Below the pieces are notes generated by a model that was not told the origin of the DNA, searched no databases, and saw nothing but the letters and a program-made list of their open reading frames with translations. Below are positions 5,379 through 64,000 of a DNA stretch of 64,000 nucleotides, in pieces. A program made the translations under genes and the position numbers. Source of the DNA: Gossypium raimondii (lineage: Eukaryota; Streptophyta; Magnoliopsida; Malvales; Malvaceae); contig NC_068567.1 of assembly GCF_025698545.1 (NCBI RefSeq), positions 1,054,001 to 1,118,000 on the forward strand. Direction: 5' to 3'. Positions within the stretch are counted from its first letter, which is position 1; each line of letters begins with the position of its first letter.

Positions 5379-5382
5379 GTTT

Positions 5383-5400
5383 TGGCGCCGTTGTCGGGGA
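5383..5400 (+). other. Primer-binding site, tRNA-Asp type
   Basis: TGGCGCCGTTGTCGGGGA lies 4 nt downstream of the 5' LTR. It matches the primer-site form of Athila-type plant elements, complementary to the 3' end of tRNA-Asp including CCA. Confidence 0.8.
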
Positions 5401-5434
5401 CTGGCAACACTTACAGATTGTTTAGATTATCTTC

Positions 5435-8777: not shown

Positions 8778-8791
8778 AAGTAGGGGGGATT
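8778..8791 (+). other. Polypurine tract
   Basis: AAGTAGGGGGGATT directly precedes the 3' LTR, the position and composition expected of the plus-strand primer. Confidence 0.8.
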
Positions 8792-31246: not shown

Positions 31247-32414
31247 ATGGCCTCTTCGTCTTCTTTTTCTTCTGCTGATGCTGCTTTGGAGCTCTTAGTA
31301 TCGTGTGCTCATGCAATTGAAGATGGGAATTTGAAAACTGCCGATTCATTCCTGCACCAGATCTGGAACCTTGCTCCTGAAGAACACGGCCTCATAAGCA
31401 AACTCGTGAGATACTTTGCCGAAGCTCTAGTTCGACGAGCTTACGGTCTCCATCCTTCTTATTATACCTATTCGAATCTGCAAATACCTCATCCACTGTA
31501 TTACTATTATTATTACTCGAGGTTTGATATCAATGAAATGGTGGGAGAAGCCATCGAAAGTGCCGCGATAGGAAAGAAGGGATTTCATCTTATTGATTTC
31601 CACATTCCGCATCTCTATGGAAGGGGATACTTGTTCAAGACACTACCGAATCGCTCCAGCGATCCCTTGTCGGTCCGTATAACCGTCGTATTACCAACTT
31701 TTCTGAAAAATACCGTCGATTTCCAAGAAGAAATGGAGTATTTGACTGGAGTGGGTAAGCCATTGAAAATAGAGTTGAAGAGGGAAGATCTGAGAATTGT
31801 TTACGCTAATAGTTTGGGAGAAGTGGATGAATCTACGTTGGATTTGAGAAGAACAAACGATGATGAGGCTTTGGTGGTTTATTATAACTTCAAATTTCAT
31901 ACACTGTTGGCAGAGGCAGAAGCAATGAAGAAAGAATTGATCAAATTGAGGCAGATAAATCCAGAAATTGTGATCATGCAAGAACAATACGCTAACGATA
32001 ACGACGGGAATTTCATCAAACGCTTGGAGTACTCTTTTCGATATTACTCTAACTTTTTTCAATATTATTCTAATCTTTTCAAATCTGGGAAACCTCTGGA
32101 CTACAATACAGCTAAATATTATATGAGACAGATTCATAACATTGTGGCATGTGAAGGCAGGGATCGAATTATGCGACACCAGAGTTTGGATGAATGGCGA
32201 GATCTGTTGTTAACAGCGGGCTTTCTTCAAATTCCATTCCAGAAAGATGTTGAGAATTTACATGCTCTGTATTGGGTAGAGGAAATCAAGGAGGAAAAAG
32301 GGTGCTTGGTTTTAAGTCACAAGGATTGCCTAATCTTGTTCGTATCATGTTGGAGACCCAGAGCTGGAGAGGAGCATTTCAAATTCAATCTAAACAGCAA
32401 TAAGTTACGGCAAG
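31247..32414 (+). CDS. Gene A exon 1: GRAS domain
   Basis: GRAS landmarks in order: LHRI ('LELLVSCAHAIEDGNLKTA', then 'RYFAEALVRRAYGLHP'), the VHIID-like 'GFHLIDFHIPH', LHRII/PFYRE ('LIKLRQINPEIVIMQEQYAN'), 'IVACEGRDRIMRHQSLDEWR' and a SAW-like end ('LILFVSCWRPR'). Length about 389 aa fits a GRAS domain. GRAS proteins are plant transcription regulators of hormone and developmental pathways. Many conserved positions are altered, so this is a divergent member. The exon ends in phase 1 at CAAG|GTATTT, the same place as in copies B and D. Confidence 0.88.
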
Positions 32415-35400
32415 GTATTTTTGTTTTCCATTGTTGAATTATTGTAGTCATAGGTGAATATCCATTATTTACTTTATCTTTACTCAGTTTCTTAACAAAT
32501 AAAAAACAATTAGAATTTGTTAATATTTTGAACAAAAGAAAAGAAAAAGTGACTAAGTTAGACTTGAGGTAAAATTTTAGGTTCGTTTTTTAGATCTATG
32601 CCCAGTCTAGTTTAAAAAATAAACCTAAAATTTTACTTAAATCGAGTTAGATATAAAATACTAAACTTGGATTTGACCCGATTAGCCCATATTAAATTTT
32701 TATATAAAACAAATTTAAAAATATAATATATTAAAAACACTAAAACTTTAAAATAAATAATTCTCAACAAATTGAAAATATATTAAAAAACATTTATACT
32801 TAAATAACATTAAGATAGATGTAACTTAGCGAGTAAATGCCTTTAATGTAGTAGTAAAATTAACAATAAAATAAAAGTTATACAATATCCAAACAATAAC
32901 AACAATACGACAACAAACAACAGAAAAAAAAATTTAGGTAGATTTAGGCGGGTTGAAAGAAGTTTACTAGAGGTCTAATCTGTTTAAAAAATGTACATTA
33001 TTTTTTGTCCAAGTCCTTTTTCTGGACTTATATTTTTGCTTACATTTTTACTTTTCAAGTAAATCTTCGAACTTAAACGAGTGATTCAACTCATTATCAG
33101 GTCTATAATTAATGGTGAAAAAGTTATTTAATATAAATTTTAAATATTTTTATTAATCATATTTATTATTAGTATACCCACTTCACCTTCTCACGAATTT
33201 AACTTTTTATTAATACATATCTTCTCTCATATAATCTTTTTTTAAAAACAACCATCACATTTAACTTTTCCCAAACATTTTTTTAATTTCTATTAATCCT
33301 CATAGTAGTGTGCAATTGAGCTGTCCATGGCCATAGTTAAGTGGCCCGCCTGACTTGATTGGTCCGGCCCAACTTGAGAGTTAAACTGGGTTTGGATAAA
33401 GAGATTTTTATCCCTGGCCCAATTTAGCCTGAATTTAAATAGAATAATTTGTAAAATAATTTATTTAAATTTAATTATAAAAATATATTTTATAATTTTT
33501 AAACTTTTAGGTGGGCTGAGCAAGGGTCAGGCCTTGACTTTGGATTTTTTTTTTTAAATTCTTGATTCAAGTTATGGACACTTCATTATGATATAATCTA
33601 GTTTTAATAATTTAGTTGTATGTTTTACTTACACAAATTTATCAATTTTAATTTTAATATAGAATAAAATAATCAAATTATGGAAATTAGATTGCAAATC
33701 TTAATTCTGTTATCTTTTCACAAAATTAATTTCATTAAAATTTAAGATTAATGAAAAGAATTAAAACATATTTAATGAATGATTTTTCATTAAATTAAAA
33801 AATATATTTAAAATCGAGATTCCTCTCTTTAAATAATAATGTGGTTTTCAATGTTTGAATCTACCTTTTCTATTGGAGAGTGCAATGTATCTTACTACTA
33901 CACTCAACACTTGTTGGTAGAACGATAAATTTGAGATATACTAAATATCCATTACTCATTTCGTAGATTTTTTTTGTATTTATGTTTATATGTAAAAATT
34001 AATTTAACATAAAATTCAACATTTTTATTTAGTTATATGATTGCATTAACTAACAATAGCATTATTACCTTTCTACATTCATAGGCTTCAATCCAAGACC
34101 TTTTCAGCCATTCCCAGAGGTATCAACTTTTATTTATTAAGAGTTTCACTTTGGTTTAGCTTTAAAAAGTTATTAGTATTACTGGTTTGTATGTTTTATA
34201 AAAGATAAAATATAACAGTATGCTTTTATTTTGATTGAATGATAAAAAAAAACCATAAATTATTTTATAAGAAAAATAAAAGGTCTTTTAAACTTGCTTA
34301 GAGGATACATATTTTGAGCATTATATATATAGTTTACACATGTTTAGATGATGGATCAAATTAAGATATGTTTTTTCGACCAAAATGAAATAGGATAAAA
34401 TATTCTCGGATTCTTACAAGACAAATGTGAGCTTTAGGGCATCGGAGGTTAATAGTTTGAGACACTCTTTGATGTTTAAGTCATTAAATGGTATATTCTC
34501 ATAAAGAAAGTAAGAAGTTTCAGCTAATGAAGAAAATTTAATGGAAGAGAAAGAGCGAAGAGCATCCAAATTCATTTCATCTTCTTCGAATTCAACTTGA
34601 TACATCATTTAAAGATTCTTAAACACACACATATAACTGTACATTCTCATTTCTTGTAAAGATATACATGTATATATATATATAGGTTTTGAATTTTGGG
34701 ATATAAACTTAGAAACTGCTTATAAAATGGTCAAAACTGTTCACTTAGGGATCTTGTCATGAGTTATTTTGGATTTTCTAATTTTCTTTCTGGTAGTTCA
34801 TTGTTAAGTTAATATTTTAACAGGGTTTCATATTGAACCGGTTAGCTACTTTTGCTGAGATTTATGACATGTTGGAAGATGTATGTTTTAGATATGAGCT
34901 TCCAGTGGCTTTTACATGGGCTTGTGAGGCTAATACAGATAAAATTATGTTGGATGGCAAGAAATATACTCTATTCATGGAAAGGACTTCTTGTTATGCA
35001 AGTAATGAGGGGTCTCAATGTTTCATGGAAGCATGTGCAAAACATCATATTCAAGAAGGGCAAGCCATTGCTGGGAAAGCACTCCAATCAAGTGCTAACT
35101 TTCATTTCGAACCAAGTATTACAAAGCTTATCAAAAGTGACTACCCACTGTTTAATGCTGCACAGTTGTTTGGTAGCCATGCTGTTGTTGCAATCTGTCT
35201 ACAAAATCACTACATCATTGGTGATGTTTATGTAGTAGAATTTTATTGGCCTGAAATCGAAAGTGAGAAATCAGAATTTTTAGCACTTGATATCTTCAAT
35301 GACTTGAAAAATATGAAGAAAAAGTTTGTAACTATACGGGTTGGAAGTAATGAAGTTGGATTCGAGAGAGAAGCCATTTCAACCACTCTGCAGGGGACAA

Positions 35401-38400
35401 TGCATACGAGAAATGCTCAACCAGCTTCATCCACCAATGATTTACTAAGCTCAAACACAACATGGTCTTTGAATGCAGTTCAACCATGTGATGTTCATGA
35501 AATGGAAAGACATGGGCTTGTTGAGCAGGTATGTTATGTTATATTATTGTTATAGACTTGTAGTATTCTAGTTCATGTGTATAATGAATAACAATATTTT
35601 CTTTTAGGTTGAATCAGCTCCCTTTAGCACACCCAATCCCATGAGTTATGGAGGAGTACTACAAACACAAGGGCCTCATAAACAGGTAATCATTTCTATA
35701 TAGTTGGTCTAACACTTGAAATTTGATTAGTAGGACAAAGCCCTAGAATATATAAAGGAGAAACATATACTACCAATTATCTTGAATATTTTTTTCAAAC
35801 AACACGAATGTAACTTAACTGAATAGCATTAGAATTAGTTGCTTGCCACTTTTTTTCCTTTTTCTTTTAAAAGAAGAAGGGTTTGGTTGATAGATTGTCA
35901 ACATTTTATTAACATTGTATGCTTATATATATAATGTAGTGCTGCGTGCCTAAGCTAAGTATTCAAATGATTATATATAATTTTGAGAGCTTTAGCTATT
36001 GTAATGTGCTTTGAAGTTTTACTTATAGAGAACTTATTCTTAGTTTGTCTACTTTCTGAAAGGAAATTGGTGAGAAGGATTTCATTTCTCAGACTGTATC
36101 CATTGGTGACTATGAGATTGTGAAAGCATACATGGAGACCTGTAAAGTCCCACGAACCAAACGGAGAAAGTACTTGTCTAAAGTTTGGCTAGATTTCGAT
36201 AAGTTTGAAGTGAATGGAAAACAAGTAGCCAAATGTAAACACTGCAATAAGGATTTTACGGGGTCAAGCAAAAGTGGAACCACACACTTGAAAAACCATT
36301 TGGAAAGATGCCAAAGTAAGAAAATAAAAAATCAGGAAAGGCAGTTAATCACATCTGAAATAGGTGATTTGATCACTCGGGATAGTGATGAAAGCAACTT
36401 CACATTCGATCAAGAAAGGAGTCGCTTGGATTTTGCGAAAATGATTATCAAGCATCAATGTCCATTGGATATGGCTGAACAAGAGTTCTTTAAGATTTTC
36501 GTGAAAAATTTACAGCCAATGTTTGAGTTTCAATCAAAAGATATTTTATTATCTGACATACATCGCATCTATAAAGAAGAAAAGGAGAAACTTCAGTTAT
36601 ATTTTGATCAGCTCGCTTGTAACTTCAATTTGACAATCAGTTTGTGGAAGAACAACCTTGGAAAGACTGCATATTGCTGTTTGATAGCACACTTCATTGA
36701 TGATAATTGGGGACCAAAAATGAAGATTATTGCCTGCAAACCTTTGGAGCATATCTATGACACAAAGGCTTTAAACGAAATTATTCAGAGCTCGGTTTTG
36801 GAGTGGAATATAAGTAAGAAAGTATTTTCCATAACTATGGATAATCCTTATTTGAGTGATGATATGTTTCAGAAGATAAAGGAAACTTGTTTTAGTGACC
36901 AAGGTTCGTTTCCTTCAACTCACTGGTTCATCGGTTGCACTTTCATTAAAGATGGTTTTCGTGAGATGGATCTAATACTTTTGAAATTAAGAAAATCCAT
37001 TGAATATGTAAGTGAAATAGCACAAGGAAAACTGAAATTTGAAGTTGTAAATCAAGTGAAGCTACAAGGTGGGAAATCATGGGATGATCTTTCTTTAAGG
37101 TTGGATTCAGACTTTGGTGTGCTTCATAGTGCCTTGGAATCAAGAGAAATTTTTTGTCAACTGGAGAAAATTGATAGCAACTTTAAATTAAACCCATCAG
37201 TGGATGAATGGGAGATGATACTAGCTTGCCACAGTTGTTTGAAATGTTTTGATGATATTGAAGGAACTCAATCACTTACTGCAAATTTGTACTTCCCAAA
37301 GCTCTGCAACATATATAAGAAATTTCTTCATCTGGGTAAGAGCAACTATCCAATTGTTACATTGATGAAGAGGAAATTTGGCTACTATTGGAGCTTATGT
37401 AATTTGGCATTTGCTGTTGCAACTATTCTTGATCCAAGGTTAAAGTTTAAATTTGTGGAGTTCTCATATACTGAGATTTATGGCCATGATAGTAAGATGC
37501 ATTTGAACAGATTTCATAAAGTCCTCACAGATGTTTACTATGAATATGCCAATGAAGCCAGAAATTTGTCTAAATCCACTTCAGACTTAGATGATTCCAA
37601 TTCTTCAACAACAGAGATTGATAATGATTGTATTCTGGAATCTTTCAGTAAATTTGCACCTGCAAGCAACTTTAATGAGGTGGCCTCATGGAAGTCTGAG
37701 CTTGACTGTTACTTGGATGAGCCGTTACTTCCCTTGGATGGAGCCTTTGACATACTTTACTGGTGGCGTATTAATACTAAAAGGTTTCCTACACTAGCAA
37801 AGATGGCTCGAGATTTCCTTGCAATGCCAATATCAATACTCGCACCATGTTTGAATTTCAACGCCATGATCACAAATCCAACCTACAACAACTTGAATCC
37901 TGAGAGTATGGAAGCTTTAGTATGTAGTCAAAACTGGTTGGAAATTCCAAAAGAAAGTAAGTCTAACTTTTAATTTGTTTTAGATCCTTTCATTCTATTT
38001 TATTGCACTTCATTTGGAGGGTCTATTCTTTAGAGTTACATTATCTTATCACTTAATTGAGTTCATTTTGTTATCACAGATGATGGAGAAAATCATGGAC
38101 CCATGCAAAATATAGTAGGTATTACATATGAATTATGATTAGAAAATGATCTCGCTTGAATTCTTTTTCCTATACTATGACTAAGCTGAAGAATGAATTA
38201 CCTTAATGCATTTTCATTAAATAGTATAAAAGGAAAAGGAAGATGGAAGACCACTCTAACGTGGTAGAAGTTTCTAAAAATTGGAATCGAGAAGAAGCTA
38301 ATAGTAGTGGAGACATTGCCAAAGTATCCATCAAAAATGGTAATTGAACCATACTTACTATTGCTATCTATTGTGTTACTTGGACAAGGGTATTTCAAGA

Positions 38401-40403
38401 AGGATGAAAAGAGCTTTGTTCTTATTTAACTTGAAATGCCAAATGGTAATCCGCTTGTTGTTGAAAAAGCAGAGAACATAGAAGTTTCAGTTTGCAATCG
38501 AAATAGGTTGGAAATATCAACAGGAAGTAAGTTCCTTATTTGATCGTTTTATCACTTATCTAGTTCAGTTTTCCAACCAATTTTTTATCTACTCATCTTG
38601 AACTGAATCTAAAAGGTGTGTAAACAGTGATAAGTTGCAAAAATTGATCTTATGAAGAAATTAGCAGTGGAAACAACTTAAGTAATGTTTCCCTTTTAAC
38701 ATTGGCAATGGCTCAATCCATTATTAAGCAAAATTTCTTGATACAGAACCTAATCATGGAAGAAACATTACTGCCTTAATCGAAATTCCAAAAGATGACT
38801 CACCATTCAACAATAATAAGTCAGGTCAGTTTCAAAGCTTGTCTTCTGAGTCTGATAACGAAATAACATTGAAGGAGCAAGGATCATGGTGTAAAGAGGT
38901 TCATACTTCAATCCATTCCTTAAACACATTTCTTTGCTTTTATGCATATATTAAGGCTTTTACATCTAAAATTTTTCCTTTTTTTTTTTAATTCTTCTTT
39001 AGGATGTTCGGGCATATTTAGTCTCGAGATTTACAGGCAAGGAGAACAAACGGCTAAATAGATGGAAAACTAATGAGTTGATTGGGTATGTGCTAGCTTT
39101 GATAAGTTAATATTGGCATATGAAGTGATGATTATAATCTAACTATACATTGAAGTTTATGCTTCACAGAAAATTGATTGGACGAGATAAGGAGTTTTGC
39201 TTAATGGGTGACAAATTAGTACCTTTACTCATGGTGCCCCATGGTGATGAAACTCGAAAAGAGTATTATATTGATGATTCTGTAAGTAATTATCAATTTT
39301 TTGGAGATATGGGCATAACCTAATTTGGTAATCTATATATTCATATGATTTTCATAATTATAGAACTGTGTTGTGTATTAATTATGTATTTTCTCATGTC
39401 ATGTTCGAAGTTATCAGGTAGTATGAGTTGAAAATAAACAAATGTTGTTAATTCATTATGGTATGCAGGTCGTTAATACATTCTTCAAATTACTTAAGAA
39501 GAGATCTGATAGATTTCCAAAGGCATACATTAATCATTATTCATTCGACTCTCAAATAGCTGTAAGAAATTTTATCTTGCACGAGGAACTATATTGATAT
39601 TTCGAATTGAAATTGTTAGTATTTTATATCAAATACTATATATAGTACAGTTTAACCTATATATTTTGCAATCACTAGACTTCCTTGATACAAGGATCCA
39701 GATCAGAACATGAAGTATTAGCTTGGTTTAAAGCTGAGAAACTAAGAGGTGCTCATAAAGTAAGCTCTTCAATTTTTGCTATATGCTTTGTAATTGTGAT
39801 AAATTACATTAACTATTGCAGTAGAAAAAACCCAAATCAAAAATATCAACAGCAACTTAAATCCTTGATTGTAACTAACAAAGATGGAACCTTTTTTGCT
39901 TTCCTTTTTGTGATTGCAGTTGTTTTTACCATTGTGTTTATCAGCCCATTGGGTTCTTTTCTATGTTAATACCAAGGAGAAGAAAATTTCATGGTTGGAT
40001 TCAAATCCATCTTCTCGAATAATGTCTAATAATGTTGAACAACAAAAGATATTACTATGGTTCACGACCTTTCTACTGCCAGAGTTTGGTTATAATGATG
40101 CAAATGAATGGCCATTTGTAGTGCGTACTGATATTCCAGTGCAAAAAAAGTAAGTATTCATCTATCAAAATCTACACATTTTCTACCTTTTATTTACTTA
40201 TTATCTTACCTTTCTTTTTTCGTTTCTCTTGTACTACAATGTAAAGCTGGGTTGATTGTGGAGTATTCGTGATGAAATATGGTGATTGCCTTACGCATGG
40301 TGATTTCTTCCCTTTCACTCAAAATGACATGGTTCATTTTCGACGTCGTATCTTTCTTGATATATACTGTGGAAGATTGTATGGAAAAATTAGACAAGTT
40401 TGA
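31247..40403 (+). CDS. Mosaic gene A: GRAS + NLP GAF-like + BED/hAT + Ulp1 SUMO protease (about 1645 aa)
   Basis: Exons by splice signal and phase: 31247-32414, 34085-34119, 34824-35528, 35608-35685, 36063-37956, 38080-38114, 38225-38339, 38747-38898, 39003-39085, 39170-39281, 39469-39561, 39679-39759, 39920-40149, 40247-40403. They total 4938 nt, all GT-AG, every junction in phase, no internal stop; TGA at 40401-40403. Residues about 10-380 are GRAS, 390-401 a Pro-rich linker, 402-600 the NLP GAF-like region, 700-745 a BED finger, 750-1293 a hAT transposase body, 1306-1345 a basic NLS-like segment, 1345-1394 an acidic SIM-like segment, 1395-1645 a C48 protease. Start chosen at 31247 because paralogues open MASSFSDT there. 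Internal exons 3 and 5 lack a proper ATG, which argues against separate genes. RNA evidence is needed to prove one transcript. Confidence 0.75.
34824..35528 (+). CDS. Gene A exon 3: GAF-like region of NIN-like proteins
   Basis: Residues 402-636. Matches the N-terminal half of plant NLP proteins: 'LATFAEIYDMLEDVCFRYEL', 'RTSCYA', 'EACAKHHIQEGQAIAGKALQ', 'YPLFNAAQLFGSHAVVAICL' and 'YVVEFYWP'. In NLPs this region takes part in nitrate sensing and activates transcription. The DNA-binding RWP-RK and the PB1 domains are absent here. The open frame starts at a splice acceptor (TTTAACAG|GG), not at an ATG. Copy B has the equivalent exon at 49238-49855. Confidence 0.88.
36063..37956 (+). CDS. Gene A exon 5: BED zinc finger and domesticated hAT transposase
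   Basis: The BED finger has C-x2-C-x13-H-x3-H (C720, C723, H737, H741) after the aromatic 'SKVWLDFDKFE'. The hAT body follows with 'FSITMDNPYLSDD' (first catalytic Asp region), 'VATILDPRLKFKFVEF' and the C-terminal dimerisation part 'LYWWRINTKRFPTLAKMARD' and 'MEALVCSQNWL'. The hAT C-x-x-H motif expected after the first Asp is degraded (about 'HWFIGCTFIKDG'), so cutting activity is unlikely while DNA binding and dimerisation may persist. No terminal inverted repeats or 8-bp target duplication frame the exon, and it is spliced on both sides. This fits a domesticated transposase of the DAYSLEEPER type. Confidence 0.88.
38080..38898 (+). CDS. Gene A exons 6-8: basic and acidic linker
   Basis: Exons 38080-38114, 38225-38339 and 38747-38898. 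The second opens YKRKRKMED, an NLS-like basic run. The third carries 'ALIEIPKDD' and 'SLSSESDNEITL', a hydrophobic core followed by acidic and serine residues as in SUMO-interacting motifs. One exon present in copy B (52668-52753) is decayed here around 38620-38690, where its acceptor AG is lost. Skipping it keeps the frame, since exons 7 and 8 of A join in phase 1. Confidence 0.6.
39003..40403 (+). CDS. Gene A exons 9-14: C48 Ulp1-type SUMO protease domain
   Basis: Residues about 1395-1645. The last two exons carry the triad: H1527 in 'SAHWVLFYV', D1544 in 'ISWLDSNPSS' and C1598 in 'WVDCGVFVMKYGDCLT'. The His-Asp distance (17) equals that of yeast Ulp1 (H514, D531), and Asp-Cys (54) is close to its 49. 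The family cleaves SUMO precursors and SUMO conjugates in the nucleus. Upstream exons ('SEHEVLAWFKAEKL', 'TFFKLLKKRSDRFP') match the N-terminal lobe of plant Ulp1-like proteins. The triad is intact, so activity is plausible. Confidence 0.88.
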
Positions 40404-42530: not shown

Positions 42531-42644
42531 CCTATCTATAGGTAAAGTCGAGTGTCCGCTCAAAAAATGGGAAAGTTTGAGTAAAAATATATGTTTGAAA
42601 GATAGATTTTGACAGAAAAATAAGGCCCATTTAAAAAATAGGTC

Positions 42645-43425
42645 ATGATCACGAATCCAGCCAACTTGAACCCCGAGAGCATGGAAGCTTTAGTATGCAG
42701 TCAAAATTTGTTGGTAATTCCCAAAGAAAGTAAGTCTTTACTCTTAATTTGTTTAGACCCTTTCATTTGATCTCCTATGCATCGCTTTCGAGAGTCTAAT
42801 CTATTCCTCAGAGGTCCATTATCTAATCACGTAACTATGTTCATTGGCTATCACAGGTGATGGAGTTCATCAACCCGTACAAACTATGGTATGCACCACA
42901 TGTGAATTATGATTGGAAGTGATGTACATTGATTTTTTTTCATACGCTATAAAGATTGAATTACCTTAATGCCTTTTTCATTTCATAGTATAAAAGGGAA
43001 AGGAAGATGGACCAGGAGGATTATTATCTGGTAAAAAAATCCAAACCTTTGAAACGCGAAGAAACTAATAATATCCAAGATATTGCCAATGATTCCAACA
43101 ACAGTGGTAATTGATCTATGCTTATTATTAATTACAATATTACTCGAACTTAAATGTCAATATTGATACGAGTATTTGACTGACCTAAATACTAAAATTA
43201 AAGTAAAATAAAGTAGAGATGAAGGAAGCTTCAGTCTGCAATTAAAATAGGTTTGAAATGTGAATAGGAGGTAAGTTCATATACTAATTTATCTACTTCA
43301 ATTTTTCGACTAGTATCTTGAAATAAATCTAAAAGAGATGGAAACAATGAAAGGTTACAAAAACTCGTATCATGGAGAAACTGGTAGTGGAGACAAATCC
43401 AAAGCTTCCAACAAAATGGTAAGAA
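42645..43425 (+). pseudogene. 3' remnant of a mosaic gene (end of hAT exon plus linker exons)
   Basis: Exon pieces match gene B: 42645-42729 (hAT C-terminus, 'NLNPESMEALVCSQN', ends AAAGAAA|GTAAGT), 42858-42889 and 42989-43106 (opens YKRERKMDQE). Their phases still join. A further exon-like stretch 43331-43420 has lost its acceptor. GRAS, NLP, BED and Ulp1 parts are missing. An ATG is present at 42645 in the hAT frame, about 145 bp after the orphan TATA box. The copy near 58480-59190 is its closest relative. Confidence 0.75.
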
Positions 43426-45850: not shown

Positions 45851-46289
45851 TTTGTTGTGTTGTTTGAGCTTGTCCTTCATTATTTGTTATGAGTATTTGT
45901 TATTTTTTTCTCTAAATTATATGGTTCCTTCATTAATTAATAAATTTACCTTTAAATATATATATTTCTATAAAAATTAGATAATAACATCACACCATTT
46001 TAGAATACAAAATCAGGGATCAAATTTGTGAAATTCTTGTATTAATGTAGACAAAAAAAATGAGAAGAGTAGGTTGAGATATTATTTAATTTGCAGGCAG
46101 GTAATCTGTCTGTAGGAAGCAAAAAGAAAAGTCAAAATAGAAACACTGAGTATTCCGCGTGAGTGATCAATGACGCGCTTTTCCTATTGCGTTTGCTTTT
46201 CCTGAGTGATCATCTTGCTGCTTTCACCTACTTTTCTACCATATTTCTCTTCTGCTTTACCCAAACTCTGTTGAATCTCACCTTCTTTC

Positions 46290-47421
46290 ATGGCTTCTTC
46301 TTTTTCTGACACCGTCTTGAGATTGTTACTATCCTGCGCTGAAGCTATTGAAGATGGGGATCTGAAGAGCGCCGATGGGTTCCTTCACAGCATCTTGATT
46401 CTTGCTGGTGAGAGCTGCTACTCAGATCAAAGACTGGTGAAATACTTTGCGGACGCTCTGGTTCGCCGAGCCTACGGACTGCATCCCGCTTGTTCCTCCT
46501 TCACTTTCCTTGTGGATCCTGCAGCATATTATCATAGTATCTGCTACCTTATTAATGGCGTCATAGAAAATGTCATCCATGATGCTTTGATGGGAATCAG
46601 GCGATTTCACCTCATTGATTTCTCCATCCCGTATTACTACAGTTTTGGGAATTCAGTTGTTCGTACACTACCGACCTTCTCTGGCGAACCTCTACCCGTC
46701 CGTGTAAGTTACATACTTCCACCATTTCTGAAAAAATATGTAAAATTCTCACGCCAAATGGAGTTTTTGACTAGGGATGCCAAGGAAGTTAATGTAAAGT
46801 TGGAGGATGAGTTGAAAGTGGTTTATGGCAATAGTTTGGCAGAAGTGGATGAATGTGAAATAGATTTGAAAAGAAGAAGAGATGATGAAATGGTGGTGGT
46901 TTACTATAAATTTAAACTTGAAAAGTTGGTAAGAGATGCAAAAGCAATGGAGAGAGAGTTGGTAAGATTGAAGGAGATAAATCCGACGATTGTAATCATG
47001 CTAGACTTTTATTCTAATCATGCCCACTCCAATTTCTTGACATGTTTCAAGGATTCATTTCAGTATTCCTTGAAGACTTTTGAATACTACTGGGAGGAGT
47101 TGGACCATTATATTGATGGGAAGTATGGGTGGGAGTGCAACAGAGAGGTAGGGGAAGGTAATAATATAATTAGGCGGCACCCAACTTTGACAGAATGGCA
47201 ACATCTCTTTTCAAGGGCTGGCTTTAGTCGAATTCCATTAAACCACAAGAAAGATAATCTTAGCGTTGAGGATGAACGTTGGTTAGAAATAATGGGGGAG
47301 GAAGAAGAGTGTTTGATTTTAGGTAACGAGGGATGTCCAATGTTTTTCTTATCGGCATGGAAACCCAAAGTTGAAGATGGACACTTCAATTCCATTTCCA
47401 CCAACCATAAGTTTGGACAAG
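46290..47421 (+). CDS. Gene B exon 1: GRAS domain
   Basis: Opens MASSFSDTVLRLLLSCAEAI at ATG 46290. Contains LHRI, 'RFHLIDFSIPYYY' (VHIID position), 'LVRLKEINPTIVIMLDFYSN' and 'MFFLSAWKPK' (SAW). 377 residues to the phase-1 donor CAAG|GTATTT. Open along its whole length and very similar to copy D, more so than to A. Confidence 0.87.
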
Positions 47422-48242
47422 GTATTTCTTCTTCTTCTTTTCTTTTTTTAAATTATATAATAATTTTATAATTGAATTGATGGTTGAACCACCAAATTAT
47501 CAATTTATTAATTCTATTTAAATTGACAATATATTTTTAAGTTAAAATATATATTTAGGACATGATTAGTAATAAGTTGAATTCAACAGAAAGTGACGAA
47601 ATTAATAAAAGTTGATCCATTTGACTAATTATAGCATTTTCATTGAATGGAATATCTTTGTAGGTTTCGATCCAAATCCTGCGCCTCTTCAACCTCGTCA
47701 ACCTTTTCTAGAGGTTTTACTTTAACATTTAGCTCTGTTTTCTTTTCTTTTGGTTTCATACAAAATATTTATTGTTCATTATTGATAAATTGTGTAAATA
47801 AAGTATTGATCATATTAATAGTCAAGTTTGAGCCAACTCTCAACTACTATATTTTAGTATACCAAAAATAATTACATTTTAATAAAAATATTAGTTTTAT
47901 TATTAAAAGTTTTAATTCAAATTATTTAATCCTTATTAAGATTCACGTTATGACTAACCAAATTGTCTATCTTTGTACATGTTTAAATGCATTTGGGCCA
48001 GTCGGCTTGAATTATTTTTACAATAAAAACTATAACTTTTATTTAAATTTAATTATAAAATAAAAATAAAAATACTCATATACTCATATTTGAAATATTT
48101 GAAATATTTTATTTTTAAAAATAGTAAAATTAACCCTTTTAGGTAGCTTAGACTTGACTCAGATAAGTTTTTAATTTTTTTTGGTTCAATCCAACTTTAT
48201 TTATGGATACCTATCTATGTAAGAGAAATCAAATTTATTTGA

Positions 48243-49051
48243 AGGGTAAACTACATCACTTTTGTTTACCTTAGATTACATTTCAGTCACTTATGTTTGA
48301 AATGGTACGTTTTAGTCACTTACGTTATTGTGTTGTAACATTTTAGTCACTAAGCCGTTAATTTTCGTTAATGGTGTAATGGTAAGCTGACGTGGCACGT
48401 TAAATTATCATTTCAAACAAAAACTTTAGGTTAAATTATACAATTGGTCCCCATAATTTTTCATTTTGAGCAATCTAATTCTTTTATGTTCTTTTAACTT
48501 TCTTTCTTTATTTTCTTTATTTTCCATTCTCTTCTGCTTTTCCCTCTGTTTTCCTACCTTCTTTATTTCTTTTAACATACCAGGAAGTCGAATTGGTAGT
48601 GAAGAAAGAAGCATGGTATGGGTTTATGGGTTTTGGTTATAGGGTTTTGGTTATAGGCAAATGATGATAGTCGACTTCCTACTTCTTTTTTCACTGCCAA
48701 TTCGACTTCTTAATATGTTAAAAGAAATGGGAAAGATATGAAAACAGAGGGAGAAACAAAAGAGAAGGAAAAAAAGATGAAAGTTTAAAGTACATAAAAG
48801 AAAAAAATTTAAATTACTTAAAACGAAAAAAATATGGGAATCAATTGTATAATTTAACCTAAAATTTTGTTTAAAATGATGATTTAACGTGCCACGTCAG
48901 CTTACCGTTACACCATTAACGATGATTAATGGCTTAGTGACTAAAATGTTACAATATGATAACGTAAATGACTAAAACGTAACATTTCAAACATAAGTGA
49001 CTAAAACGTAACCTAAGGTAAACAAAAGTGACCATGAGTGTAGTTTACCCT
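48243..49051. mobile_element. 809-bp foldback element in intron 2 of gene B
   Basis: Almost the whole element is an inverted repeat: arms about 48243-48610 and 48680-49051, ends AGGGTAAACTACA and its complement. Flanked by TTATTTGA on both sides (48235-48242, 49052-49059). Copy D near 63908-63925 has the same site uninterrupted, with one TTATTTGA. No coding capacity; a non-autonomous DNA transposon (MULE- or hAT-like by target size). Confidence 0.8.
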
Positions 49052-52000
49052 TTATTTGAATAAGTATAATTATGACATTATGTTTTTAATTTGTTGAAGT
49101 TTATGAATAACTAACTGAAAACAGTCACATTTCAATTTTAAATATCTTTATCAAATTAAAAGTACAATGTCAAAAGTGTTATTTCAAATTTTCAAATTTT
49201 GTTTGTGATAATTGTTTCTTATTTAATAATTTTACAGGGTTTGAAATTGAATCGATTAGCTGCACTTGCCGAGATACATGACATATCAAAATATTTATCT
49301 TGTAAATACAAGCTTTCATTGACTTTAACATTGGCTTCTAAGGTCAACAATATGAATGAAACTATTTCGGATCCAAACAAGAAACATGTTTTTTTTATCC
49401 AAGATAATTATTGTTATACGAATGATATGACATCTTATTATTTTATGCTTGATTATTCTAAAGACATGATTAGTGGCCGCCCCCTAATTATTGAGAAAGC
49501 ATTTGAATCAAGGGACGGCTACCATTTTCAACCATCTCTTTCTAAGGTAGAAGACTACAGAGATTCCACGTTACAGCGTTATAACATAGATGGTGCTGTT
49601 GCCATCTGTCTACAAAATCGTCACACAAGTGATGAAGTTTATATCGTAGAATTTTATTGGCCTCCAACTGAGAGTGAAATATCAAAATCTTTAGCTCTTC
49701 GTATCTTCGATGACTTGAAACATATGAAGACAACGTTTGTAACAGTAAAAGTTCAAGTCCCCGAAATTAAGTTACAAGAAGCCATTTCAAGCATTCCTAC
49801 ATCTGCAAACACAGCAATGCCTTTGAAAATAGCTGAAAATGCGCATATTGAGCAGGTAATTACATTACCTTATATATTGTTATATTATTTCAACACTGAA
49901 TTAATTATGGGTTAGCATTTATGGTTCTAATATGATAATAACATTTGCTCTAAGAAGGGGTGGTTCCTAATTTTGACTCTCTGATTTCTATACATTCTTC
50001 ATCAAAGGTTGTTGCAGATCCTTTTAACACACTAGAAGGGCCTTATAACAAGGTCATTATTTATTCTTCCTTGTTAATGTCATAGAGTCTCTAAACATGA
50101 AATCTATTTTTTTTTTTACCTAATCAGTTCCATAGAAACCCATAAGGAAAAACTTACATCAAGAATGCAGCTTAATAAATTAATTTCACAGTAAATCTAG
50201 TTACCTTTTTTACAATATTGGTCGAATATCTTTTCAACATCGTTTTCATATTTTCTGCTTAAATATTGTATATATATGTAGTATCAAATAGATTTTCCCT
50301 TTGGATAAAATATTGAAATCATATAAAGTAATATACATGATTTATTATTCTCATTTTTCATGGATTATTTTCAATGATGACTCTCAGATTGTGGAAACAA
50401 AACGAAACAAACAGAGAAAGTCGTGGTCAAAGGTTTGGGTGGACTTTGATAAGTTTGAAGAACATGGAAAACAAGTAGCCAAATGTAAACACTGCCCCAA
50501 GGTGTTTACAGGGTCAAGTAAGAGTGGAACCACACACTTGAATAACCACTCGAAAGTATGTCCTGGTAAGAAAAAACCAAATCAAGAAAGCCAGTTGATA
50601 CTTCCAGTTGATACCAATGAAAGAAGCTCAACGTTTGATCAAGAAAGGAGTCACTTGGATCTTGTGAAAATGGTTATTAAGCATCAGTACCCATTAGCTT
50701 TGGTTGGTCAAGAAGCCTTCAAGAATTTTGTGAAAGGTTTGCAGCCGATGTTTGAGTTTCAATCAAGAGATAAATTGTTATCTGACTTCTATAAGGAAAA
50801 GAAAAGAGAAGTTCGACAGGGTTTTGATAAACTTGCTTGTAAGTTCAATTTGAGAGTCACTTTGTGGAAGAATGGTCTTGGAAAGACTGCATATTGTTGC
50901 CTGATAGCACACTTTATTGATGATGATTGGAAACTGAAGATGAAGATTCTTGCCTTCAAAACTTTGAAGCATATATATGACACAAAGGCTTTAAGTGAAA
51001 TTATCCAGAGATCAGTTTCAGAATGGAATCTAGATGAGAAAATATATTCCATAACTATGGATGACCCTTCTTTGAACGAGGAAATGTTTCAGCAAATAAA
51101 AGAAACTTGTGTTCGTGATCAAGGCTCGCTTTCTTCAGCTCATTGGTTCATTAGTTGCAATTTTCTTGAGGATGGGTCTCGTGAGATGTATAGTATACTT
51201 CATAAGTTTAGGGAATCCATTGAATATGTCACTGAAACAACACATGGGAGACTAAAATTCCAAGAAGCTGTAGATCAAGTGAAGCTACAAGGTGGGAAAT
51301 CATTGGATGATCTTTCTTTCAAGTTGGAATCAGAATTTGACATACTTACTAGTGCTTTGAAATCAAGAGAAATCTTTTGTCAGTTGGAGCAAATTGATGG
51401 CAATTTTAAGCTAAACCCATCAATGGAGGAATGGGAAAAGGCCATAGCTCTAAAGAGTTGTTTGAAATGTTTTAATGATATCAAAGGAACTCAATCCATT
51501 AGTGTAAGTTTGTACTTTCCAATGCTTTGTGACATATACAAGAAATTTCTTCAGCTGGAAAAAAGCAATCATTCATTTCTTACATTGATGAAGAGGAAAT
51601 TTGATCGCTATTGGAGCTTATGTAATTTGGAATTAGCTGTTGCATCTGTTCTTGATCCAAGGTTAAAATTTAAAATTGTGGAGCTCTCATATAATGTGAT
51701 TTATGGCCATGACAATAAGATGCAACTGAACGAGTTTCATAAAGTTCTTACAGATGTTTACTGGAAATATACCAATGGAGCTAGAAATTCGATTGCATCC
51801 ACTTCAATATTGGGTGATTCCAATTCTTTGACAACAGAGACTGCAAATGATTGTATTTTGGACTCCTTCAATAACTTTTTACCCTCATGGAAGTCAGAGC
51901 TTGAGGATTACTTAGGTGAGTCAGAGCCTGCACTTCCCTTAGATGGAGACATACTTGGTTGGTGGCGTGCTAATTCTCTAAGGCTCCCTTCTCTTGCAAA

Positions 52001-54192
52001 GATGGCTCGTGATCACCTTGCAATGTTGGTATCAGTTTCGATGCCATGTTCGGCTGTTAGTGCCATGATCACACATTCAAGCTACAATAGGTTGGACCCT
52101 GATAGCATGGAAGCTTTGGTATGCAGTCAAAATTGGTTGGAAACTCTTAAAGAAAGTAAGTCATAACTCTTAATTTGTTTATCTGCTTTCATTTGATCTT
52201 CTACACTTCACTGAGAGAGTCCAATATATTTTTTAAAGCTGCATTATTCATCACTTAACTAAGTTCATTTACTATCACAGATGAGGGAGAAAATCATGAA
52301 CTTACACAAAATACGGTAGGCAGTGTACATGAATTATGATTAGAAGCTATCTCCATTGAACCTTTTTTTTCATACACCATGAAGACTGAACTCCCTTGAT
52401 GCATTTTCATTTCATAGGAAAAAAGGAAAAGGAAGATGGATGAGGAGGACACTTATGTGGTAAAAAGTTTCAAACCTTTGAATTGCGAAAAGGCTAATAG
52501 TACCAAAGACATTGCCAAAGATTCCAACAACAATGGTAATTTACTACACTTATTATCATTAACTATTATGGTACTCAAACTCGAATGTCAATGTTTTTAT
52601 TTAATTTGAAATTGATTAAGCTGTTGAAATATCATATGGTAATATATCTTATTTTAATTGAATCTAGAAGAGCTGCAAATAGTGAAAAGTTGCAAAAATT
52701 GGTGTAAGGAAGAAACTGACAGTGGAAACAAATACAAAGCTGCCAACAAAATGGTAAGAAATTTAGTGCTATTTTTTATTATCATTTCTATCTTTATTTA
52801 AAGAATAAATGTTGTTATTTCACTTGAACTGAAAAGATGAGAACTCTTTCTTTATAGAATGTTGGCAAAGAAGTGATATCATCAAAATCATCAGGTATTT
52901 TCAACTAAACAAACTACTTGAATTTGGTTTTCCTTAACAATGAAAATGAATTAAATTATTAAGCAAAGCTTCTTAATACAGAACTGAATCTTGGAAGAAA
53001 CACTAATGACGTAATAGAAATTTTGAGTGAAGATACGTCGATCGATACTACTCAATTAGATCAGGTCGAAAGCTCATCTTCCGAGTCTGATAATGAAACA
53101 ACATTGAAGGATCAAGGATCATGGTGTGAACAGGTTCATACTTCATTTCTTTGGTTATATATACACCTACATTCTTTTGGTTTTATGCATATATTAATGT
53201 TTTTACATCATGATTTTATTTGATTATTGTTCTTATAGGACGTTGAGGCATATTTACTCTCGAGGTTTACAAGCAAGGAGCATAAACGGCTAGATAAATG
53301 GCAAAAGAAATGTGAAAGGAATGAGTTAAATGGGTATGTTGCTAGCTTTGATGAGTTAATATTAGAATCTGAAGTGATCATCATAATTTAACTATATAAC
53401 AATGTTTATATTTTACAGAAAAATGATTGGACGAGATGTAGAGTTTAAATTGATGAGTAATGAATTGGCACCTTTATTCATGGTACCTCAAGATGATGAA
53501 ACTCGAGAAGAGTACTATATTAATGATTCGGTAAGTAATTATCAAATGTATAGTGGTCGGGCATAAATTAATTCATTAATTAGTATATTTGTATCATTTT
53601 CATAATTATATTTTGTGTCATGCATTAGTTTTCAAGTTGCGTTCAATGTTATCATGTCTACAATCTAATATGAAACTAATTAAAGATAAATCAATGATGT
53701 TAATTTTTATGTTATGATACAGGTTGTTAACGTTTTCTTGAATTGCTTAAGAAGAGATCCTATAAATTTCCAAATGCATACATCAATCACTATTCATTTA
53801 GCTCTCATTTAGTTGTAAGAACCTTTATCTTGCCAAAATCTATTGGTATTTAGAATTGAATTTGTTATTATTTTATAAACATTATATATAATGAAAGTAA
53901 CATATATTTTGCACCCATCAGACTCAATTGATAAAAGGATTCAAATCAGAACATGAAGTATTAGCTTGGTTTAAAGTTGAGAAGCTAAGGGTCTACATAA
54001 AGTAAGCTCTCTGATTTTTTTTAAAATTTTCCTTTTAGCTTTTAATTGAGATTTAAATTGTGTTTGTGAATTCAAGCGATAAATTACTTTAAATTACGAT
54101 ACGATACCGTAAATATTGAATGTTATTTAAATTTCTAACCATAACTAACAAAAACAAATATAATGTTATGTTGTTTCTTTTTGTGATCGCAG

Positions 54193-54676
54193 ATGTTTTT
54201 ACCATTGTGCATATCATCACATTGGGTTCTTTTATATGTTGATATCAAGGAAAAAATATTTTCATGGTTGGATCCAGATCCATCTTCTCAAATACTATCT
54301 TACCATTTCGAAAAACCTGTTACAGTATTACAGTGCTTTAAAAGCTTTTTACTCCCAAAGCTTGGTTATAGTGATGCAAATGAATGGCCATTTGTGGTGC
54401 GTAATAATATCCCAAAGCAAAAAAAGTAAGTACTTTTCATAATCTACAGCTTTGTAACTTTTTATTTACTTGTTATCTTACAAATTTGTCTCTTTTTTTC
54501 ATTTTTTTACTATAATGTGAAGCTCGGTTGATTGTGCGGTGTTTGTGATGAAATACGGTGATTGTCTTACGCATGGTGAATGCTTTCCTTTCAAACAAGA
54601 AGACATGGTCCATTTTCGTCGTCACATTTTTCTTGATATATATCGTGGAAGATTACATAGAAAAAATAAAGATTGA
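54193..54676 (+). CDS. Gene B terminal exons: Ulp1 catalytic core, cut off from the upstream frame
   Basis: 54193-54425 and 54523-54676 join in phase 2 and encode about 128 residues with H ('SSHW'), D ('WLDPDP', 17 residues later) and C ('VDCAVF'). The residue after the catalytic Cys is Ala where A has Gly. The first exon opens with ATG (54193) where A has TTG, so an independent short frame exists, though it lacks the N-terminal lobe of the protease. Confidence 0.6.
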
Positions 54677-58125: not shown

Positions 58126-59345
58126 ATGGATTCTTATCTTTTTGACACCGAAACCGCCTTGAGATTGTTACTATCCTGCGCTGAAGCTATTGAAGATGGG
58201 GATCTGAAAAGAGCCGATGCGTTCCTTCACAACATCTTGATTCTTGCTGATGAGAGACCCGACTCATATCAAAGCAGAGTGGTGAAATACTTTGCGGACG
58301 CTCTGGTTCGCCGAGCCTACGGACTGCATCCCGCTTCTTCCTACTTCACTTTCCTGGTGGATCCTGCACCATAATATCATTATAACAGCTACCATATTAA
58401 TGGCGTCATAAAAAAAGTTATCGATGATGCTTTGATGGGAAACAGGCGATTGCACCTCATTGATTTCTCCATCCCGTATTACGGTATGCAGTCAAAATTG
58501 TTTGGTAACTCCCAAGGAAAGTAAGTCTTTACTCTTAATTTGTTTAGACCCTTTCATTTGATCTCCTATGCATCACTTTAGAGGGCTAATCTATTCCTTA
58601 GAACTATATTATCTCATCACTTAACTAAGTTCATTAGTTATCACAGGTGATGAAGAAATTCATGAACCCGTACACACTATGGTATGCACCACATGTGAAT
58701 TATGATTGGAAGTGATGTACATTGATTTTTTTTCATACACTATAAAGATTGAATTACCTTAATGCCTTTTTCATTTCATAGTATAAAAGGGAAAGAAAGA
58801 TGGACCAGGAGGATTATTATCTGGTAAAAAAATCCAAACCTTTGAAACGTGATTGCCAATGATCCCAGCAACAGTGTTAATTGATCTATGCTTATTATTA
58901 AGTACAATATTACTCGAACTCAAATGTCAATGTTGATATGAGTATTTGACTCACCCAAATACTAAAATTAAAGTAAAATAAAGTAGAGATCAAAGAAGCT
59001 TCAGTCTGCAATTAAAATAGGTTTGAAATGTCAATGGAGGTAAGTTCATATACTAATTTATCTAGTTCAATTTTTTGACTAGTATCTTGAAATAAATCTA
59101 AAAGAGATGGAAACTATGAAAGGTTGCAAAAATTCATGTCATGGAGAAACTAGTAGTGGAGACAAATCCAAAGCTTCCAACAAAATGGTAAGAAACTAGA
59201 TTATTACCTTAATCAGGTTTTCTAACTACACAAACTACTTACATACTTATTTTCTTCAACATTAGAAATGGTTTAACTTATTAAACAAAGCTTCTTGATA
59301 CAAAACATGGAAGAAACATTAATTACAATTAATGAAGTAATGGGA
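58126..59345 (+). pseudogene. Mosaic copy C: GRAS start fused by deletion to the hAT end
   Basis: Opens MDSYLFDTETALRLLLSCAE at ATG 58126. A nonsense change (TAT to TAA, 58372-58374) stops the GRAS domain after 82 residues. At about 58482, just after the 'LIDFSIPYY' codons, sequence jumps to the last codons of the hAT exon ('GMQSKLFGNSQGK' in a shifted frame) and its GTAAGT donor. Linker exons follow near 58648-58680 and 58782-58850 (the latter truncated), then 59100-59186 and a decayed piece near 59295. NLP, BED, most of hAT and Ulp1 are gone. Confidence 0.8.
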
Positions 59346-61395: not shown

Positions 61396-61786
61396 TTATT
61401 GTATTATTTGAACTTATCTTTCACTATCTACAGTGAGTATTTATTATTTTTTTCTCTAAATTATATAATTCCTTCATTAATTAATAAATATATATATTTC
61501 TATAAAATTAGATAATAACATCACACCATTTTAGAATACAAAATCAGGGATCAAATTTGTGAAATTCTAGTATTAATGTAGACAAAAAAAAATGAGAGAG
61601 TTGGTTGAGATATTATTTAATTTGCAGGCTGGTAATTTGTAGGAAGCAAAAACAAAAGTCAAAATAGAAACATTGCTTTTCATACAGCTTTTGAATTGTA
61701 CATATCAATCATTGCTGCTTTCACTTACTTTTCTACTATATTTCTCTTCTGCTTTACCCAAACTCTGTTGAATCTCACCTTCTTTC

Positions 61787-64000
61787 ATGGCTTCTTCTTT
61801 TTCCGACACCGCCTTGAGATTGTTACTATCCTGCGCTGAAGCTATTGAAGATGGGGATCTGAAAAGCGCCGATGCGTTCCTTCACAACATCTTGATTCTT
61901 GCTGATGAGAGACCCTTCTGGTTTGGAAATAAAAAGAGAGTGGTAGAATACTTTGCGGACGCTCTGGTTCGCCGAGCCTACGGACTGCATCCCGCGTCTT
62001 CCTACTTCACTTTCCCGGTGGATCCTGCACCGTATTATCATTATAACAGCTACCATATTAATGGCATCATAAAAAAAGTTATCGATGATGCTTTGATGGA
62101 AAAAGGGCGATTGCACCTCATTGATTTCTCCATCCCGTATTACAGGTTTCAGAATTCAGTTCTTCGTACACTACCGAACTTCTTCGGCTATCCTCTACCC
62201 GTCCGTGTAAGTTACATACTTCCACCATTTCTGAAAGAATATGTAGAGTTCTCACGCCAAATGGAGTTTTTGACTAAGGATGCCGAGGAAGTTGATGTAA
62301 AGTTGGAGGATGAGTTGAAAGTGGTTTATGGCAATAGTTTGGCAGAAGTGGATGAATGTGAAATAGATTTCAAAAGAAGAAGAGATGATGAAATGGTGGT
62401 GGTTTACTATAAATTTAAACTTGATAAGTTGGGAAGAGATGCAAAAGCAATGGAGAGAGAGTTAGTAAGATTGAAGGAGATAAATCCGACGATTGTAATC
62501 ATGCTAGACTTTTATTCTAATCATACCCACTCCAATTTCTTGACATGTTTCAAGGATTCACTTCAGTATTCCTTGAAGACTCTTGATTACTGGGAGGCGT
62601 TGGGCCATAATCTTGGTTGGAAGTATGGGTGGGAGTGCAACATAGAGGCAGGGGAAGGTAATAATATAATTAGGCGGCACCCAAGTTTGACAGAATGGCA
62701 ACATCTCTTTTCAATGGCTGGCTTTAGTCGAATTCCATTAAACCACAGGAAAGATAATCTTAGCTTTGAGGATAATCCTAGCTTTGCGGATAATAGTTTG
62801 TTAGAAATAATGGGGGAGGAAGAAGAGTGTTTGATTTTAGGTTACAAGCAACGTCCAATGTTTTTCTTATCGGCATGGAAACCCAAAGTTGAAGATGGAC
62901 ACTTCGATTCCAATTCCACCAACCATAAGTTTGGACAAGGTATTTTTATTTTCTTCTTATTTTTTTTAATTATATAATAATTTTACAATTAAATTGATGT
63001 TTAAACCACCAAATTATCAATTTATTAATTCCATCTATCTGCTTTTGATTCTATCCAATTAAAATATATCTGCTTTTGATTCTATCCAATTAAAATAATC
63101 TTAAATTATATATCAATTATTATTTGATGCATTGAAAACTTATAAATTTCTATATTAATTGTAGACTACATGATACATCCATACTAAAATAAATTATTTT
63201 AAAATTACTAAAATAAATGAGTTAAAATAAATTATTTTAACTTTCTTATATTTTTTCCATTCAATTGAGCTTTTCAGTGTTAAAATTTCAATCAATTGAA
63301 AGATTTTTCTGCTAAAATTAAGGTCAATTGTTAAATGGTAATAGTCATTTGTCCTTTCTTTGACTTGTTGCTTTTTTTTATTTGACTAATTATAACATTT
63401 TCATTGAATGCAATATGTTTGTAGGTTTCAATCCAAATCCTCTGCCTCGTCAACCTCTTCAACCTTTTCCAGAGGTATTACTTTTACATTTACCTCTTCT
63501 TCTTTTTTTCATACAAAATATTTATTGTTCAACTAGTATATTTTAGTATACCAAAAATAATTAAATTTTAATAAAAATGTTAGCTTTATTATTAAAAGTT
63601 TTTAATTCAAATTATTTAATCCTTATTAAGATTCACGTTATCCAAGACTAGGCAATTTGTTTATCCTTTGTACATGTTTAAACGCATTTGGGGCAGTCGG
63701 CTTGAATTATTTTTTACTACAACTTTTATTTAAATTTAATTATAAAATAAAAATACTAAAATACTCATATTTGAAATATTTTAATTTTTCAAATAGTAAA
63801 ATTAACTATTTTAGGTAGCCTAGACTTGACTCAGATGAGCTTTCAATTTTTTTAGTTCAATCCAACTTTAACTTATGAATACCTATCTATGTAAGAGAAA
63901 ATCAAATTTATTTGAATAAGTATAATTATAACATTATGTTTTTAATTTTTCTAATTTATGAATAACTTACTAAAAAAAGTCACCTTTCAATTTTAATTAT
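61787..64000 (+). CDS. Mosaic copy D: GRAS exon and linker exon, continues past the window
   Basis: Exon 1 is 61787-62939 (384 residues, phase 1, donor CAAG|GTATTT), exon 2 is 63425-63474 (17 residues, 'NPNPLPRQPLQPFPE', phase 0). Both match copy B in length logic and phase. GRAS landmarks: 'LLLSCAEAIEDGDLKSADAF', 'LHLIDFSIPYY', 'LVRLKEINPTIVIML', 'RRHPSLTEWQHLF', 'MFFLSAWKPK'. Residues near 'NLSFEDNPSFADNSLL' contain a short in-frame duplication (FEDN/FADN) that B lacks. The NLP exon would be expected within about 1 kb after the window end. Nothing in the visible part is broken. Confidence 0.8.

Follow-up and report, generated by a model that had tools for sequence, protein, structure and literature searches.

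A GRAS-GAF-BED/hAT-C48 fusion gene array in Gossypium raimondii with a possible role as a domesticated, DNA-bound deSUMOylase

Introduction

Plant proteins combining a GRAS domain with a BED zinc finger, a hAT dimer domain and a C48 protease have been described in two papers (this and all further literature being cited from excerpts), i.e. as class IX with the domain string GRAS-Zf-BED-DUF-Dimer_Tnp_hAT-Peptidase_C48 (PMC9296551) and, listed in passing, with the same string for the cacao (Theobroma cacao) protein TcGRAS22 (PMC9858872). Here, we analyse a 64-kb stretch of DNA of the wild cotton Gossypium raimondii, the window, which carries at 31247-40403 a gene, copy A, encoding GRAS, BED, hAT dimer domain and C48 in this order together with a GAF domain of the NLP (NIN-like protein) type. 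Positions are those of the window, while positions preceded by C3 or C1 are chromosome coordinates. An earlier note on this DNA knew of no described protein with this order, a statement contradicted by both papers. Within the excerpts, PMC9296551 does not mention GAF and the term NLP is absent from its main text, and PMC9858872 gives TcGRAS22 without a GAF domain or a function. PMC9296551 states class IX as being confined to Gossypium and reports only classes I-III in G. raimondii. Neither the confinement nor the absence holds here, since the full order is present in G. raimondii copies and in other Malvaceae genera.

Further systems share single parts with copy A. SLEEPER genes such as DAYSLEEPER are domesticated hAT genes with a BED finger, a dimer domain and lost transposition residues, features in which copy A resembles them, but the coding sequences of the SLEEPERs of Arabidopsis, grapevine and rice are intronless whereas copy A has 14 exons with the BED-hAT part in one of these, and the excerpts describe no GRAS, GAF or C48 parts in SLEEPERs (PMC3499209). 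DELLA proteins are kin of the GRAS head, which in copy A lacks the DELLA motif and is fused to other domains; NLPs share the GAF domain, but the RWP-RK and PB1 domains were not found by Pfam in the copy A protein. Plant ULPs and human SENP1 (PMC6759571, PMC6117577) resemble the C48 part of copy A according to its Pfam match, its SENP1 match and its H-D-Q-C residues. Kaonashi ULP-like genes join, as does the fusion, an Ulp1 domain with transposon-derived sequence, but they are mobile multicopy elements of MULE and not of hAT type, capture of Ulp1 by MULE transposons being known (PMC6117577, PMC13317346). Tandem expansion accompanied by positive selection was reported for other GRAS groups in species that, according to the excerpt, exclude cotton and poplar (PMC4279901). 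To these descriptions we add the GAF part, the DELLA kinship of the head, the neighbouring NLP gene, the loss of hAT residues versus the retention of H-D-Q-C, and the signs of positive selection on the head of the sister copies.

Results

Gene structure and domain order of copy A

We could exactly rebuild the 14-exon structure proposed in the earlier note, spanning 31247-40403 with 4938 nt and a single terminal stop, including GT-AG borders in 13 of 13 introns and the intron phases 1,0,0,0,1,0,1,0,2,0,0,0,2. The joined protein spliced from the window has 1645 aa, and six Pfam families score above the curated cut-offs: GRAS (aa 15-370, 1.4e-47), GAF_NLP (aa 408-552, 1.5e-33), zf-BED (aa 701-745, 5.1e-7), hAT RNase-H (aa 1064-1157, 6.9e-20), hAT dimer domain (aa 1208-1288, 1.9e-17) and Peptidase_C48 (aa 1455-1634, 6e-19). 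The exons are:

31247..32414, plus strand: exon 1, GRAS domain, aa 1-389, DELLA-related, without DELLA motif
34085..34119, plus strand: exon 2, 35 nt linker
34824..35528, plus strand: exon 3, NLP-type GAF domain, aa 402-636
35608..35685, plus strand: exon 4, 78 nt linker, absent in the G. mustelinum annotation, matched in the Durio homologue P0004
36063..37956, plus strand: exon 5, BED zinc finger, hAT RNase-H remnant and hAT dimer domain, aa 663-1293
38080..38114, plus strand: exon 6, 35 nt linker
38225..38339, plus strand: exon 7, linker with the basic run KRKRK
38473..38526, plus strand: possible cassette exon, 54 nt, in-frame, additional to the earlier model, read by eye
38747..38898, plus strand: exon 8, linker leading into the protease
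39003..39085, plus strand: exon 9, conserved stretch preceding the Pfam C48 match
39170..39281, plus strand: exon 10, its end coinciding with the start of the Pfam C48 match
39469..39561, plus strand: exon 11, C48
39679..39759, plus strand: exon 12, C48
39920..40149, plus strand: exon 13, C48 with His1527, Asp1544 and Gln1592
40247..40403, plus strand: exon 14, C48 with Cys1598, stop codon

The orthologue of copy A, P0001 of Gossypium mustelinum (1613 aa, annotated separately), represents 46 member sequences and covers 99% of the copy A protein at 91%, showing that the domain order is not due to chance. Compared to the copy A model, P0001 is missing exon 4 together with the initial 25 codons of exon 5 and has, with changes, the translation of the 54-nt stretch 38473-38526 (read by eye). 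In exon-by-exon searches exon 4 has no match or only a weak match in the sister copies, and the exon-4 stretch is present in the Durio homologue P0004. This differing presence suggests that both exon 4 and the 54-nt exon may be used alternatively.

Homologues in other plants

The earlier note proposed to search plant proteomes for the architecture. We found the same order in public proteomes: among the 50 homologues listed, for which only candidates sharing most words were scored, 13 hold GRAS, GAF, hAT and C48 together according to Pfam. These belong to seven genera of Malvaceae, namely Gossypium, Durio, Reevesia, Hibiscus, Craigia, Diplodiscus and Corchorus. Sixteen of the 50 are Salicaceae models (Populus, Salix), and the remaining 21 are without one or more of the four domains. 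As a guess, the Populus GRAS subfamily 'Pt20' could correspond to the fusion family. All named matches listed in the homologue, GRAS-GAF and C48 searches are from Malvaceae and Salicaceae genera, the family being confirmed by taxonomy for Gossypium, Reevesia and Populus and following the usual classification for the other genera.

The search for an origin of the C48 part returned 14 matches with no clearly standalone relative among them, several carrying hAT pieces or seeming partial. Three Gossypium relatives named for chromosome D01 (P0093, P0094, P0097) have C48. In P0093 and P0094 a BED-hAT-like N-terminal part is also seen by eye, and Pfam matches neither GRAS nor GAF in them. In the Corchorus homologue P0036 a geminivirus coat protein domain is annotated beside GAF and hAT, possibly as an annotation join.

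An array of eight copies

Exon-by-exon searches revealed eight copies with the same domain order in the G. raimondii genome. Three of these (Z, Y, X) lie on the minus strand and five (A, B, C, D, F) on the plus strand. Five further copies are located near A, one more leftwards and one 1.6 Mb rightwards. The window contains, besides copy A:

42642..43087, plus strand: copy remnant, end of the hAT exon and exon 7
46284..54664, plus strand: copy B, same 14-exon order, spliced alignment without stop or frameshift
58150..58485, plus strand: copy remnant, start of the GRAS exon, one stop within the Pfam match
61781..64000, plus strand, on to C3:1123294: copy C, GRAS exon to 62939, then intron; one frameshift, in exon 11

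In spliced alignments four of the eight copies (A, X, B, Z) show 14 exons without stop or frameshift. These alignments were guided by the A protein, so that the copy models are not independent of A, while the public annotations are independent. Copy F, of which the sequence was covered to exon 12 only, has one frameshift inside a stretch read as a single long exon. The GRAS match is open in all eight full copies. Besides a weak GAF piece on C1, the GRAS and GAF matches of the fusion family are limited to the array and the one place 1.6 Mb off. The C1 piece, a weak GAF_NLP match (C1:38824303-38824470, minus strand), lies less than 72 kb from a C48 match with five stops (C1:38752747-38753178, minus strand), the two together perhaps marking a degenerate relative outside the array.

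The synonymous substitution rate (dS) between the same two copies varies up to about 18-fold by domain among X, Y, B, C and D (X-B: 0.040 in GRAS, 0.743 in C48). This indicates that exons were exchanged between copies; recombination between copies is evident.

Active sites of the hAT and protease parts

Residues were surveyed in an alignment of copy A and the 50 homologues (51 rows). Only the C-terminal part of the hAT exon matches the Hermes structure. The hAT catalytic positions were set from the catalytic residues of Hermes and from the structure-match alignment, the first position being weakly placed; the C48 positions follow the catalytic residues of SENP1. Active hAT transposons have the catalytic residues D, D and E, a set which the fusion family does not retain: the Glu position holds E in a single row, D in four and a gap in four, and the Asp positions hold D in 7 (first) and 40 (second) of the 51 rows. 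The transposase thus looks disarmed, with most of the catalytic residues lost. Residues of the DNA-binding and dimerisation parts are kept, i.e. the BED cysteines and the second histidine in 46-47 rows, the first-histidine column in 32 (N in 14) and the WW of the dimer domain in 47.

In the C48 domain, all four catalytic positions are occupied in 17 of the 51 rows, each of which, three isoforms of one gene among them, reads H-D-Q-C; 28 rows have none of the positions and six are partial, with two of the latter deviating (D replaced by E in P0010 and Q by S in P0016). The nearest solved relative of the copy A C48 domain is SENP1 (3e-16), and judged by its residues the active site of the protease looks intact. 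We know of no canonical ULP with a GRAS, GAF or hAT part. These data back the earlier description of the fusion as domesticated, with a seemingly disarmed hAT part retaining its BED and dimer residues next to an H-D-Q-C protease.

Origin of the GRAS and GAF parts

In a maximum likelihood tree of 52 GRAS sequences, comprising 11 fusion-family heads and 41 GRAS loci of the G. raimondii genome, the heads of Malvaceae and Salicaceae form one clade (ultrafast bootstrap 100) which is joined, again with ultrafast bootstrap 100, to the four loci L021, L023, L029 and L032. A literal DELLA motif is present in L021 and L023 and none is literal in L029 and L032. The heads are sister to these four DELLA-type loci, not nested within them, and have long branches. 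The nearest solved GRAS structure to the copy A head is the DELLA protein RGA. Copy A has none of the N-terminal DELLA and TVHYNP motifs, only 14 residues preceding its GRAS match. By tree and structure match, the head is assigned to the DELLA lineage without the DELLA motif, which sharpens the label of a GRAS/NLP regulatory head used before.

For the GAF exon of copy A no sequence match was found among solved structures. In the GAF tree the fusion GAFs and the eleven genomic NLP GAFs fall into different groups (support 99), and by identity the GAF of copy A is nearest to a subgroup of three NLPs (0.34-0.35 versus 0.24-0.32 for the other eight). One member of this subgroup flanks the array on its left, lying downstream of copy Z and sharing its strand (C3:1009813-1013647, minus strand; GAF at C3:1011524-1012075, with PB1 and a partial RWP-RK match in neighbouring frames). 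The GAF tree does not single this neighbour out, and a derivation of the fusion GAF from the adjacent NLP gene is suggestive only.

Selection among the copies

Among X, Y, B, C and D the ratio of non-synonymous substitution rate (dN) to dS, omega, exceeds 1 in 10 of 10 pairs for GRAS and in 7 of 10 for GAF, and is 0.37-0.70 for BED-hAT and 0.21-0.50 for C48. Using codon site models implemented in our own code, not PAML, we obtained for M2a versus M1a twice the log-likelihood difference (2dlnL) of 51.3 for GRAS, 37.0 for GAF, 3.5 for BED-hAT and 9.4 for C48, the latter with one site above 0.9. Masking of gap neighbourhoods left 25.9 for GRAS and 17.7 for GAF. The maxima for GRAS and GAF in null simulations, 24 per setting at unmasked alignment length, were 4.4 and 8.2 under one tree and 11.5 and 10.2 under mosaic trees, which were the only imitation of recombination. 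For the seven sister copies, masked and tested for three parts, 2dlnL is 58.5 (GRAS), 41.9 (GAF) and 5.2 (BED-hAT). Mean omega is 1.88 for GRAS, differing from 1 (2dlnL 11.7), 0.58 for BED-hAT and, lowest of the four parts, 0.37 for C48. Among X, B, C and D, GRAS dN is 6-10% at a dS of 3.5-6.6%, and the introns between exons 3 and 5 diverge by 2.5-4%. There are thus signs of site-level positive selection on the GRAS and GAF exons of the seven sister copies, not on BED-hAT, as if the head of the sister copies evolved like a recognition surface.

Other features of the window

The window further contains the following features:

3938-10232: long terminal repeat (LTR) retrotransposon, gag frame 5426-7159 between two 1.44-kb repeats, which are 98.4% identical and therefore suggest a fairly recent element
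15988-16482, minus strand: DDE transposase fragment (DDE_Tnp_4 / Plant_tran), probably of PIF/Harbinger type
25488-27671, minus strand: PPR-DYW gene, open frame
41024-41524: pieces of this PPR-DYW gene, inverted, directly downstream of copy A, with 85-89% complementarity

Discussion

We tentatively favour, at close to an even chance, an explanation according to which copy A is a genuine single gene encoding a domesticated, head-guided and DNA-bound deSUMOylase. That it is one gene follows from the same order in eight copies and in 13 of the 50 homologues listed, from seven genera. In the proposed origin, a BED/hAT transposase would have been joined with a DELLA-lineage GRAS domain lacking the DELLA motif and with a GAF domain of the NLP type, giving rise to a rosid family of host-transposase fusions of which the Malvaceae form also carries a C-terminal Ulp1/SENP1-type protease. 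The GRAS and GAF head would recruit a protein partner, and a dimer would be positioned on DNA by the BED finger together with the hAT dimer domain, the hAT part no longer transposing. C48 would then take SUMO, or a modifier related to it, off this partner or off neighbouring proteins. The head is seen as the recognition part because the selection signal sits there. The C48 protease OTS1 deSUMOylates DELLA in plants (PMC6759571), making the pairing of a DELLA-type head with a SUMO protease plausible. We infer from sequence that copy A is transcribed and that its product is nuclear, binds DNA and is an active protease acting on a substrate recognised by the head, and in this conditional sense we keep the idea of a DNA-targeting deSUMOylase put forward in the earlier note.

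Several results weigh against this explanation. The protease exons carry frameshifts, one each in C and D and three in Y, and C48 (PF02902) is present in none of the 16 Salicaceae rows among the 50 matches listed. Mean omega of GAF is 1.18 and does not differ from 1 (2dlnL 0.54), the means of the seven masked copies are 1.47 for GRAS and 0.98 for GAF, and omega of single pairs differs from 1 (2dlnL above 3.84) in four of six pairs for GRAS and in none of six for GAF. Introns 1-2 diverge by 6-8% among X, B, C and D, i.e. about as much as GRAS dN. Comparing head versus tail within pairs resulted in p values of 0.025, 1e-4 and 0.076 at head ratios of 1.46, 1.85 and 1.01, the last being X-D. Copy A itself has a GRAS dN/dS of 0.51-0.59 towards five other copies and is about equally similar to its G. 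mustelinum orthologue across the domains (95, 96, 95, 96%), so that the fast head belongs to other copies and is not shown for A.

A mis-joining of neighbouring genes, with GRAS-GAF, hAT and C48 being separate transcription units merely in phase, would account for shorter annotated models, i.e. GRAS-GAF models without a hAT Pfam domain (14 of 37 rows in a search scored as the homologue search, from Reevesia, Gossypium, Pterospermum, Populus and Salix, e.g. P0051 and P0052) and hAT-C48 or C48-only models (P0087, P0089). These are, however, gene predictions, some marked partial, and many of the GRAS-GAF-only ones may be partial. Of 15 copy pairs, 13 moreover have a dN/dS below 1 in the linker exons 7-8 (the other two giving 2.65 and a dS of zero), the junctions are phase-compatible, and the order recurs in both orientations. 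We consider mis-joining very improbable and rejected it for the order being shared by eight copies and seven genera. Similarly improbable is an active or recent hAT transposon with captured host exons. The hAT and BED domains, the capture of Ulp1 known from MULE transposons and an A/T-rich exact inverted repeat, the longest shared between the two 2-kb flanks, speak for it; with 15 nt this repeat exceeds those of 35 out of 36 random pairs (10-14 nt, the remaining pair having 28), but the catalytic Glu position is changed and the GRAS and GAF matches, apart from the C1 piece, are clustered in the array and the place 1.6 Mb away, the two points for which we disfavour a mobile element despite the flank repeat.

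Two further explanations, each unlikely but deserving attention, concern function. A duplicated array under relaxed constraint, having drifting heads, a decaying protease and little current function, is in line with the frameshifts of Y, C and D, the remnants at 42642-43087 and 58150-58485, a mean GAF omega indistinguishable from 1 and the GRAS dN being similar to the divergence of introns 1-2, the last point raising the weight of this explanation at the expense of the favoured one; we nevertheless regard it as rather unlikely in view of the mean GRAS omega and its difference from 1, the strong site heterogeneity, the GRAS match being open in every full copy, the low omega of BED-hAT and C48 and the 46 member sequences behind P0001. 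The absence of PF02902 from the Salicaceae rows and the broken C48 in three of eight copies would fit a non-enzymatic regulator, in which a SLEEPER-like part binds DNA, a DELLA-like head binds partners and C48 at most binds SUMO, to which we assign a small though appreciable probability; H-D-Q-C in 17 of 17 complete rows and the lowest mean omega of the tested parts in C48 argue against it.

Going beyond the deSUMOylase explanation, the array might take part in an arms race, in which the DELLA- and NLP-derived heads would serve as rapidly evolving baits for a target that itself keeps changing, with the hAT core and the protease bringing about local deSUMOylation on chromatin. Targets could be, for instance, pathogen proteins attacking DELLA or NLP regulators or foreign DNA-bound proteins. 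We regard this as a speculative extension with a minor chance of being correct; if true, plants would have a recognition family distinct from NLRs and receptor kinases. A head with site-level positive selection on a constrained core and protease is a combination one would expect where a substrate or an enemy is recognised. New regulators can arise through host-transposase fusions, and the fusion described here also includes an enzyme and holds a regulator domain whose DELLA relatives are SUMO-controlled, which makes it a case amenable to testing in a crop genus of importance and in related trees.

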